Shown: positions 55,237 to 63,725 of the stretch, piece after piece | How the letters are laid out: every line of letters starts with the position of its first letter | Position numbering within the stretch: position 1 is the stretch's first letter | Assembly: GCF_003550175.1 (NCBI RefSeq) | Contig: NZ_QXDF01000001.1 | Location: 1,078,501-1,142,500 of the forward strand | DNA: 64,000 bases | Source of the DNA: Dichotomicrobium thermohalophilum | GTDB lineage: Bacteria > Pseudomonadota > Alphaproteobacteria > Rhizobiales > Rhodomicrobiaceae | Reading direction: 5' to 3' | Made by a program: the position numbers and the translations under genes | Notes under the pieces: generated by a model | Told to the model about the DNA's origin: nothing | The model's input: the letters and a program-made list of their open reading frames with translations, nothing else | Database searches by the model: none

Positions 55237-55259
55237 CGCCGCCGGAGAAGTGGTTTTTT
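55229..55259 (+). terminator. Weak terminator at the end of the P450 gene
   Basis: TCTCC (55229-55233) and GGAGA (55244-55248) form a short stem, followed by six T residues that overlap the stop of the convergent curlin gene. Confidence 0.35.
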
Positions 55260-55659
55260 ACCAGCCGCCCTGGAACAGCACGCCAGACTGGCCGTCCCCG
55301 TACTGGTTGACGTTGGCGTTCGTGTCCTTGCCGAACTGGAACACGCCGAGCGTGTTGTCGTTGCCGTACTGGCCAACGCTGGCGTCATGGCCATCGCCGC
55401 GCTGGTAGACGCCGACGTGGTTGCCGCTGCCATGCTGGCTTACCCGGGCGGAGTTGTCGTTGCCGCCGAACAGGCCAAAGCGGCGCTGGACGTGGGAGAA
55501 GGTCCGCAGCCCGCGGGACAGCTTCTTCTGGCCCTTCTCGCTCTTCGGCGAAACGTAAATGCTGAAGCTGCCGCCCGCCTCGGCCGGTTGCGGTGCAGCC
55601 AGACCACCCAGTCCGATGGTTGCGGCCATCACGGCGGCGCAAAGTGTGGTACGTTTCAT
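55258..55659 (-). CDS. Curlin repeat protein, CsgB-like
   Basis: This 133-residue exported protein (signal peptide ending in AEA) has an unusual basic region (SPKSEKGQKKLSRGLRTF) before a curlin repeat region. Glutamines at 75, 86, 97, 108, 119 and 130 recur every 11 residues, each followed by x-Gly, the cross-beta rung of curli fibres. The basic linker and fewer, less regular repeats suggest a nucleator or minor subunit. Third gene of the curli unit; GGGGAG precedes ATG 55659. Confidence 0.85.
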   Translation of the reverse strand: MKRTTLCAAVMAATIGLGGLAAPQPAEAGGSFSIYVSPKSEKGQKKLSRGLRTFSHVQRRFGLFGGNDNSARVSQHGSGNHVGVYQRGDGHDASVGQYGNDNTLGVFQFGKDTNANVNQYGDGQSGVLFQGGW

Positions 55660-55682: not shown

Positions 55683-56099
55683 TCAGATATGGCCGCCGAT
55701 GCGCTTGGCGCAGACGAAGGTCTCGCCGCCGGCATGGACCTTGAGCTTGGCGGTATAGGCCGTGCCCGTGCCGCCGAGCGACACCATGCCGAGCTGGGCG
55801 GGGCTGCCGGGATAGGCCGCGAACCCCCCGGCCTGGTTGATATGCGACTGGCCGCTCATGCCCTCTTGCTCGATCGTCAGCTCGTAGCGGCCGGACACCT
55901 TCTCCTCGCTGAACACCACGCCGCGCAGCTCGACGCCGTAAGACCGCGGCGTCACCTCGATCTCGCAGCGCACGCGATCGCTGGTGAACCAGCCCGCGCT
56001 GGCGTCGTCGCCGGAGAAGCCCGCGCCCATTGCTGCCATGCTTGCGGTCAGCGCGGCGCCGGCCAGCGCGCGCCGGATGTTTCTGTTGCGTTTGGTCAT
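55683..56099 (-). CDS. csgH: Curli fibre chaperone CsgH
   Basis: This 138-residue exported protein matches the alphaproteobacterial CsgH family, a periplasmic immunoglobulin-like chaperone that keeps curlin subunits from aggregating, functionally parallel to CsgC. The mature part shows RCEIEVTPRSYGVELRG, VSGRYELTIEQEGMSGQSHI and TAYTAKLKVHAGGETFVCAK, with two cysteines (45 and 130) that could pair. It lies between two curlin genes in the same direction; start ATG 56099. Confidence 0.88.
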   Translation of the reverse strand: MTKRNRNIRRALAGAALTASMAAMGAGFSGDDASAGWFTSDRVRCEIEVTPRSYGVELRGVVFSEEKVSGRYELTIEQEGMSGQSHINQAGGFAAYPGSPAQLGMVSLGGTGTAYTAKLKVHAGGETFVCAKRIGGHI

Positions 56100-56164: not shown

Positions 56165-56614
56165 TTAGTCCTGAACGATCACGGCCACGTTGCCCTTGCC
56201 ATGCTGGCTGGTGTTGGCGTGGTTGCCGTGTCCGCCCTGGATAACGCCCACGGCGTTGCCGCGGCCGGTCTGGGTCGTGGTGGCGCTGTGGCCGGAGCCG
56301 AACTGGGCGACGCCGGTCACGTTGCGGCTGCCGCGCTGATAAGTGTCGGCGTAGTTGCCACTGCCGCTCTGACCGACGAAGGTGCGGTTGCCATAGCCGT
56401 CCTGAGTGCTGATGGTCGTGTTGCCATAGCCCCACTGTTTGATCTTCATGCGGTTGCCATAGCCGCTCTGACCGCCACCGGCCTGGTTGAACTTGCCGAA
56501 CTGCTCGATCGAGGCGCTATTGCCGCCGGCAATCGCGGCCGAACCGCCCGCGGCCAGTCCGAGACCGAGAACGAGAGCCATGGCGCTGGACGTCAGAACT
56601 TTGCGGATCGTCAT
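56165..56614 (-). CDS. Major curlin subunit, CsgA-like
   Basis: This 149-residue protein is secreted (signal peptide to about residue 29) and then consists almost entirely of curlin half-repeats. Glutamines at 38, 49, 60, 71, 82, 93, 104, 115, 126 and 137 are spaced exactly 11 residues apart in a Q-x-G-x-G-N pattern (QSGYGN, QWGYGN, QDGYGN, QSGSGN). This gives ten rungs of a beta-solenoid amyloid, fitting the major curli fibre subunit. It is the first gene of the unit; GGGAG precedes ATG 56614. The outer-membrane secretion genes csgEFG are not in the window. Confidence 0.9.
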   Translation of the reverse strand: MTIRKVLTSSAMALVLGLGLAAGGSAAIAGGNSASIEQFGKFNQAGGGQSGYGNRMKIKQWGYGNTTISTQDGYGNRTFVGQSGSGNYADTYQRGSRNVTGVAQFGSGHSATTTQTGRGNAVGVIQGGHGNHANTSQHGKGNVAVIVQD

Positions 56615-56672: not shown

Positions 56673-56700
56673 CGAACCCGCTCTGAACCTGTTTTGAACC
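56673..56700 (-). promoter_or_regulatory. Three direct repeats upstream of the csgA-like gene
   Basis: CGAACC (56673), TGAACC (56684) and TGAACC (56695) recur at exactly 11 bp; on the curli strand each reads GGTTCR. They lie about 60-86 bp before the csgA-like start codon and just upstream of a TACAAA that could be the -10. This spacing suits tandem binding of an OmpR/PhoB-type activator replacing a -35 box. Confidence 0.5.
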
Positions 56701-56715
56701 GCGTTGTTGGGTTGT

Positions 56716-56731
56716 GTTCACGCGCGTGAAC
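56716..56731. promoter_or_regulatory. 16-bp perfect palindrome upstream of curli repeats
   Basis: GTTCACGCGCGTGAAC is a perfect palindrome whose GTTCA arms match the direct-repeat half-site. It lies about 100 bp before the csgA-like start and is a candidate upstream operator. Confidence 0.45.
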
Positions 56732-57095
56732 GATGGCTGTTCGGCGAATTCAGGTGTTGTTCATCGGGGGATGGGGCTGCGAAGGCTTGTCATCGCGCCT
56801 GGCGCGCATTACAAACAGTGGAGTCGCAGAGTTTTGTGCCGAGACACGACGTGTTCGCCATGAACCAAGCAGCTTCCTTCGCGTTCGCGATTGACCGCCG
56901 CCGCCTCTCCCCGGCGACGGCTGCGCTGCGTCCGGCTCTGCCAACGCTCCTCAATACGCCTCTTCTAAGCCTTAGCAGCCCCTGAGCATCGGCGGTTCGG
57001 GCCAGCCGGACGGGTGCTTAGGGGATAATGACTGCGACGGGACGACAGGATTTCTCCGGCGAAGACACCGGATCGGATTAAGAGGCAGGATCACA

Positions 57096-63038: not shown

Positions 63039-63725
63039 ATGAGCACGCCGCGGCATATTCTGGTGGTGGACGACGACGAGGATCTGCGGGACTCGCTGGC
63101 CGAACAGCTCGCGCTGCACGAAGAGTTCGAAACCGAAATCGCTGGCGATGCGCGCGGCGCGATCGACAAGCTGAAAAGCCAGCGTGTCGACCTTGTGCTG
63201 CTCGACATCGGGCTGCCGGATATGGACGGGCGCGAGGCCTGCAAGCTGATGCGCAAGAACGGCTTCAAGGGCCCCATCATCATGCTGACGGCGCAGGATA
63301 CCGACGCCGACATGATTCTGGGACTGGAATCCGGCGCAAACGACTACGTCACGAAGCCGTTCCGCATCGCCGTGCTGCTCGCCAGGATTCGCGCGCAGCT
63401 ACGCCAGCACGAGCAGAGCGAGGATGCCGTCTTCGCGATCGGTCCATATACCTTCAAGCCGGCTAGCAAGCTGCTGCTTGATCAGCAAGGTCGCAAGATC
63501 CGCCTGACCGAGAAGGAAACCTCGATCCTCAAGTACCTCTATCGCGCGGGTGAGAGCGTCATCACCCGGGATGTGCTGCTGCACGAGGTCTGGGGATACA
63601 ACGCCGGCGTGACCACCCATACACTGGAGACTCATATCTACCGCCTGCGTCAGAAAATCGAGCAGGACCCGTCGAACGCGGAGCTGCTTGTTACTGAGGC
63701 CGGCGGCTACAAACTCATGCCGTAG
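63039..63725 (+). CDS. OmpR/PhoB-family response regulator
   Basis: This 228-residue two-component regulator has a receiver domain (acidic pocket in ILVVDDDEDLRD, phospho-acceptor Asp56 in LLDIGLPDMDG, the switch Lys in YVTKPF) and a C-terminal winged-helix DNA-binding domain (LTEKETSILKYLYRAGESVI, VTTHTLETHIYRLRQKIE). No histidine kinase gene is adjacent. It is divergent from the L,D-transpeptidase gene, so envelope control is possible. The GAGAG upstream of ATG 63039 is a fair ribosome site. Confidence 0.93.
   Translation: MSTPRHILVVDDDEDLRDSLAEQLALHEEFETEIAGDARGAIDKLKSQRVDLVLLDIGLPDMDGREACKLMRKNGFKGPIIMLTAQDTDADMILGLESGANDYVTKPFRIAVLLARIRAQLRQHEQSEDAVFAIGPYTFKPASKLLLDQQGRKIRLTEKETSILKYLYRAGESVITRDVLLHEVWGYNAGVTTHTLETHIYRLRQKIEQDPSNAELLVTEAGGYKLMP

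Follow-up and report, generated by a model that had tools for sequence, protein, structure and literature searches.

The 64,000-nucleotide stretch of Dichotomicrobium thermohalophilum DNA analyzed here (the window) carries a curli unit in which a csgA-like curlin gene is followed leftwards by csgH and a second curlin gene (Table 1). An upstream scan of the second curlin gene found no activator box of the kind described below in the 200 bp before it, and for this reason the gene probably shares a transcript with csgA-csgH.

Table 1. Genes and promoter features of the curli unit and related sites; positions are those of the window, except where G000:C1 marks a position in the host genome.
Feature	Position	Strand	Remarks
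Second curlin gene (start revised to 55659)	55258-55659	-	Pfam PF07012, 7e-18 on 55258-55560
csgH	55683-56099	-	Pfam PF21112, 3.3e-22
csgA-like curlin gene	56165-56614	-	Pfam PF07012, 1.2e-20
Predicted -10, TACAAA	56666-56671	-	12 bp after the core box; spacing as in relatives and the host's own feuN
Third GGTTC copy	56674-56678	-	in the box/-10 spacer; not conserved
Core activator box TTCA-N7-TTCA, candidate FeuP site (match 2)	56684-56698	-	TTCAAAACAGGTTCA in gene direction; before csgA; matches the S. meliloti motif exactly
Palindrome	56716-56731		GTTCACGCGCGTGAAC; perfect over 16 bp, 15 bp beyond the last repeat
Second, opposite box TGAA-N7-TGAA	56749-56763	+	TGAACAACACCTGAA in gene direction; exact match
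OmpR/PhoB-type response regulator gene	63039-63725	+	Pfam Response_reg and Trans_reg_C
TTCA-N7-TTCA-N12-TA, match 1	G000:C1:16801		before feuN-feuP-feuQ
TTCA-N7-TTCA-N12-TA, match 3 (L144)	G000:C1:1835505		before an ORF of 133 aa whose N terminus looks signal-like

The region upstream of csgA reads TGAACAACACCTGAATTCGCCGAACAGCCATCGTTCACGCGCGTGAACACAACCCAACAACGCGGTTCAAAACAGGTTCAGAGCGGGTTCGTTACAAAG in gene direction. The initial annotation had described three GAACC repeats spaced by 11 bp next to a -10-like TACAAA, with a perfect 16-bp palindrome further upstream, and all of these features were recovered, the repeats starting at 56674, 56685, and 56696 on the plus strand. This description was accurate but incomplete, as it left out a second 11-bp pair formed by TGAA half-sites at 56749-56752 and 56760-56763, upstream of the palindrome. 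Read in gene direction, the repeats become GGTTC, the first two of them constitute the core box, and the core of the promoter takes the form TTCA-N7-TTCA-N12-TACAAA. The direct half-sites thus follow each other in steps of one helical turn (10-11 bp), as in the tandem boxes of OmpR/PhoB-type activators. In such boxes, the tandem half-sites replace the -35 element and stand at a fixed distance from the -10. The window element shares with PhoB/OmpR boxes both the 11-bp tandem half-sites and the fixed distance to the -10, but its half-site is TTCA rather than TGTCA, and it has an additional, back-to-back reversed pair. The proposed OmpR/PhoB-type layout is well supported, all the more as it is kept upstream of csgA in relatives (see below).

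The GAACC triplet has a single match in the 2.99-Mb genome and the palindrome pattern GTTCACN4GTGAAC likewise occurs at a single place, with no match for either control. Perfect 16-bp palindromes are not rare as a class, as four of them lie in the 64-kb window. When the 160 bp upstream of csgA were dinucleotide-shuffled 20,000 times, the triplet never arose on either strand, TTCA-N7-TTCA followed by TA after 11-13 bases arose in 10, and the joint occurrence of TTCA-N7-TTCA and TGAA-N7-TGAA was not seen in any.

Within the order, relatives of csgA were identified in 44 of the 397 genomes searched (own genome included), and 30 of the loci, one per genome, were compared. The relatives share the ungapped element TGAAY-N6-TGAAY-N6-TTCAG-N6-TTC-N12-YTARAAC, of which the reversed TGAA pair is a part. 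The element together with the -10 scored at least 20 of 25 in the csgA upstream regions of 26 of the 29 relatives and 17-19 in the other three, whereas the best of 200 shuffles per region never exceeded 18; because the motif was read off the same sequences, these scores describe the promoters rather than test them independently. Twelve columns are invariant among the 26 high-scoring promoters. The window promoter departs from the full element. It scored 19 in a distal register that has no -10, while the proximal part of the relatives' element corresponds exactly to its TTCA pair and -10, with the inner TGAA half-site lost. These two registers are 43 bp apart, and the palindrome sits where they meet, its left arm falling on the half-site that ends the distal, degenerate copy and its right arm on the one that opens the proximal copy.

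We further examined csgA loci on named contigs, among which a single csgA protein used as a query found no relative; the csgA alignment A2 was used next. The best 80 of the 274 loci from the A2 scan were taken and 78 of them used (L204 and L205 had too little upstream sequence); this set partly overlaps the first one, with two Methyloligella records and at least one from Hyphomicrobium present in both. Among these best 80 of 274, the element (at least 15 of 18) was present upstream of csgA in 49 of 50 non-Rhodobacterales loci, L201 being the exception, and in none of 28 Rhodobacterales loci, where the assignment to Rhodobacterales was made by genus name (with the taxonomy of six genera looked up, four of them Rhodobacterales and two Hyphomicrobiales). 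The controls gave no match in either the shuffled (0/78) or the downstream sequences (0/78). The 50-locus counts are not independent, because 34 of these loci are from Rhizobium or Mesorhizobium, three of them from one strain. Element-bearing genera include Methyloligella, Hyphomicrobium, Mesorhizobium, Rhizobium, Agrobacterium, Aureimonas, and Fulvimarina. Two Rhodobacteraceae curlins (58 and 56% identity) rank highest in the scan, yet none of the Rhodobacterales loci has the element.

In 45 of the 49 element-bearing relatives, a TA stands 13 bases after the second TTC, exactly as in the window, whereas a third TTC 11 bp further on was found in two and the palindrome in none. The pair and its spacing are therefore general, and the third repeat and the palindrome are local. 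In the comparison with relatives that the initial annotation had proposed, TTCA-N7-TTC with its reversed pair thus proved conserved, and the third copy and the palindrome did not. We concluded that the element is real and conserved upstream of csgA.

The core box is an exact match to a motif from Sinorhizobium meliloti. According to the accessible text of PMC3616915, TTCA-N7-TTCA was recovered there de novo as Motif 3 and precedes 12 genes. FeuP dependence was already established for five of these, feuN is among the FeuP-dependent genes that carry the motif, and Motif 3 was proposed as the FeuP site; the site is thus a candidate in S. meliloti itself. The half-site and the 11-bp period are the same as in the window, and curli genes or a second, reversed pair are not mentioned in the accessible account of Motif 3 and its 12 genes. 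In the D. thermohalophilum genome, TTCA-N7-TTCA-N12-TA has three matches (Table 1) and its reversed control none. One of them precedes the host's own feu operon, with an N12 spacing between box and TA identical to that of the window promoter. The first protein of this operon has 97 aa and looks secreted, the second is an OmpR-family regulator of 225 aa, and the third is a histidine kinase of 458 aa. FeuP (G000:C1:17209 onward) is encoded 1.1 Mb from the window curli unit and is 75% identical to the FeuP of genome G225; FeuN, which has no Pfam or NCBIfam match, was assigned from position and size only. The second open reading frame after feuQ is ccmI, which we take to be the same gene as cycH. 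An R. leguminosarum paper joins cycHJKL and feuPQ in its title (reference 37 as cited in the accessible text of PMC11103875). Two further FeuP-type sites were noticed in the host genome, one at 1609246 (L091) before a 106-aa secreted-looking protein and one at G000:C1:993376 (L090) upstream of a gene that by eye is superoxide dismutase-like.

A sequence-only model of the 26 csgA promoters, R1, was run on 21 genomes. Its matches at csgA promoters arise by construction, because it was built on them; away from csgA, matches had E values down to 3e-10. The 26 non-csgA loci picked from the match list stand mostly before small proteins with N termini that look signal-like by eye. At L082, the genes behind an R1 match encode a small protein resembling PepSY (Pfam 1.1e-4, which misses the cut-off), a regulator of the OmpR family, and a kinase-like product; feuN-feuP-feuQ is composed in the same way. 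The window promoter itself was not among the best four of the eight R1 matches in its genome, down to an E value of 0.06.

The upstream regions of feuN-feuP were examined in 51 of the 54 genomes with FeuP, leaving out G399, G534, and G632. The exact box was found in 47 of the 51 loci, in 42 of them with a TA at 11-13 bases, the count of 47 treating as misses both L116 and L157, which lie at contig starts where the upstream sequence could not be properly read. The real misses are L169 (G400) and L179 (G070), where FeuP has no exact box in the 600 bp upstream. TTCA pairs at spacings of N2-N6 and N8-N15 were present in 0-2 of the 51 loci and in none on the other strand. Among nine paralogous regulator loci, one carries the TTCA box (L133) and four carry GTCA-N7-GTCA instead (L134, L138, L139, and L141), a word found in none of the 51 FeuP loci. 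Because the paralogue loci differ in this way, the TTCA word appears tied to FeuP and not to the family at large. The GTCA-N7-GTCA word at FeuP-like paralogue operons looks like a sister specificity to the FeuP box.

FeuP itself accompanies the curli box. A protein at least 67% identical to that of G225 was encoded in 21 of 21 genomes, and one at least 70% identical to the host's own FeuP in 33 of 35 further genomes. For the named loci, co-occurrence was assessed for 14 of the 49 element-bearing loci and all 28 Rhodobacterales loci, with 41 of 42 genomes searched. FeuP at 72-82% identity is encoded in all 13 box-bearing genomes. In the 28 Rhodobacterales, the best match to FeuP did not exceed 54%, which is the level of paralogues, and seven had no match at E 1e-40, these absences being counted in genomes of unstated completeness that include some small metagenome-assembled genomes. 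Outside the order, CsgH was found in five sampled genomes besides that of the host (385 searched). In G400, which has FeuP, the element is present with a single mismatch in its TTCA pair, and a further exact pair occurs as well; G703 has csgA-csgH with neither box nor FeuP. The other three, G399, G534, and G632, encode a 70%-identical FeuP, and no TTCA-N7-TTCA was found within 1500 bp upstream of their csgH, a stretch that includes csgA; FeuP therefore need not control curli everywhere. Two of these three genomes carry TGAA-N7-TGAA, 223 and 376 bp before csgA.

The Rhodobacterales loci have a motif of their own. With up to two mismatches allowed, the palindrome TTATCSGATAA was found within the 300 bp before csgA at 21 of the 28 Rhodobacterales loci compared with 1 of 20 others, counts made without a shuffle control. 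The sites lie 105-297 bp upstream of csgA (L181-L255) and in five loci occur twice, 31-32 bp apart. TTATCSGATAA is possibly the operator of a Rhodobacterales curli regulator.

Other readings of the window promoter have to be weighed against FeuP; RirA, an EcfG sigma factor, and CRP-like regulators also came into consideration as conceivable readers. A LexA (SOS) box was our first idea: alphaproteobacterial LexA recognises GTTC-N7-GTTC direct repeats, so that it could read GTTC-N7-GTTC-N7-GTTC in the window and would repress curli. The window word fits such a repeat, and the genome carries lexA, whose match has GAACACAACAGGAAC some 45 bp upstream (G000:C1:1660057-1660071). However, in the 49 element-bearing relatives the first half-site is preceded by C in 40 cases and by G in 3, and GTTC-N7-GTTC was found in 2 of them compared with 45 for TTCA-N7-TTC. 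In addition, GAAC-N7-GAAC occurs in the genome near chance level (78 matches versus 63 for the reversed control), and the TTCA box also precedes feuN-feuP. LexA was set aside on the half-sites of the relatives, and we regard it as extremely unlikely. The palindrome could instead serve an unrelated dimeric repressor as an operator in its own right, beside or in place of a FeuP box. It is perfect over its 16 bp and unique in the genome, but it is absent from all 49 relatives, belongs to a class with four members per 64 kb, and has both arms on half-site positions of the element, which makes a separate repressor very unlikely.

Another OmpR-family regulator, namely the orphan encoded at 63039, CenR, or a FeuP paralogue, would account for the 11-bp period, which is common to the family, and one paralogue locus does have the TTCA box; four of the nine carry GTCA-N7-GTCA instead. 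The CenR regulon of Rhodobacter sphaeroides resembles the present case in its 11-bp tandem repeat, OmpR-family regulator, and envelope genes (PMC9275681). The CenR spacing TGA-N8-TGA is contained in TGAA-N7-TGAA and thus fits, but the sites in Table 1 of that paper are mostly TGAC/TCAC..GTGA, unlike the TTCA and TGAA half-sites, and the genes are different. The orphan regulator, which the initial annotation had linked to the repeats as a guess, is not the likely one. Its protein is identical to the host's FeuP at 74 of 232 aligned positions, and neither TTCA-N7-TTCA nor TGAA-N7-TGAA occurs in the 300 bp upstream of its gene start. Searched against 14 csgA neighbourhoods (4-12 kb), it gave matches in two, at 92-108 bits, and thus has no close homologue in these neighbourhoods. 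Binding by any of these other family members seems unlikely. Given the conservation of the box, its presence before feuN-feuP, and the co-occurrence of FeuP, the regulator is most likely FeuP and not the orphan.

We thus consider the box most likely to be a FeuP box and curli a member of the FeuP regulon, and think it highly probable that the csgA-csgH-curlin promoter is activated by FeuP of the FeuN-FeuP-FeuQ envelope/osmotic system. FeuP binding, the dimer arrangement, activation, and the signal are predicted here from sequence, conservation, spacing, rarity in the genome, and co-occurrence with FeuP. A FeuP dimer would bind the tandem TTCA-N7-TTCA half-sites head to tail; with the box in the -35 position, 12 bp before TACAAA, FeuP would bring in RNA polymerase in the manner of PhoB at its promoters. 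A second dimer may occupy the reversed TGAA-N7-TGAA pair further upstream. In the relatives, the two pairs stand back to back as a 36-bp operator, TGAAY-N6-TGAAY-N6-TTCAG-N6-TTC, and in the window they appear to have been pulled apart and partly degraded, which would have produced the palindrome and the third repeat.

In Enterobacteriales, the curli subunit genes (csgBAC) are activated by CsgD, the role proposed here for FeuP, although FeuP, in contrast to CsgD, is a two-component OmpR-family regulator. Alphaproteobacteria are reported to be without csgD in the accessible text of PMC3521004. It is somewhat probable, in our estimation, that FeuPQ is a general replacement of CsgD in Hyphomicrobiales and near relatives, wiring curli to osmotic, envelope, and host-peptide sensing via a symmetric operator of four half-sites for two back-to-back FeuP dimers, and that Rhodobacterales, having no close FeuP, have rewired curli to a different regulator. 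FeuP of S. meliloti responds to osmotic change (accessible text of PMC11103875) and to the legume peptide NCR247 (preprint PMC12486126, accessible part). If the proposal is true, amyloid production in rhizobia and their relatives responds to osmotic and host-peptide signals, and the FeuP regulon gains a sharp, searchable signature; it may also answer the question of who turns on curli in bacteria without the usual curli regulator.

Our literature search found no link between FeuP and curli. In the accessible text of PMC5539429, PMC8761673, and PMC7769827, the word "curl" refers to root-hair curling; FeuP and curli are separate topics in that of PMC11103875, and FeuP does not appear in that of PMC12547748. 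The accessible part of PMC3187737 deals with a PhoP-like protein of Xylella also named 'feuP' and mentions E. coli curli separately. In R. mesoamericanum STM3625, csgAB was downregulated with root exudate (PMC5789663, accessible text); a csgA of this strain (L256), whose genome also encodes FeuP, carries the full element, and this copy may not be the csgAB of the transcriptome.

Besides csgA, the curli-type element stands before many small secreted-looking proteins (L072, L073, L076, L078, L079, L083, L089, L108, L110, and L111), of which that of L083 has an SH3_3 and that of L078 a DUF302 domain in Pfam. These element-fronted proteins suggest a larger envelope regulon. GAACACAACAGGAAC, upstream of lexA, may be a box through which LexA regulates its own gene. 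In eight genomes (G356, G012, G181, G020, G384, G022, G241, and G306), the element has another, weaker match 1.05-1.23 kb from that of csgA, possibly before a second curlin gene.
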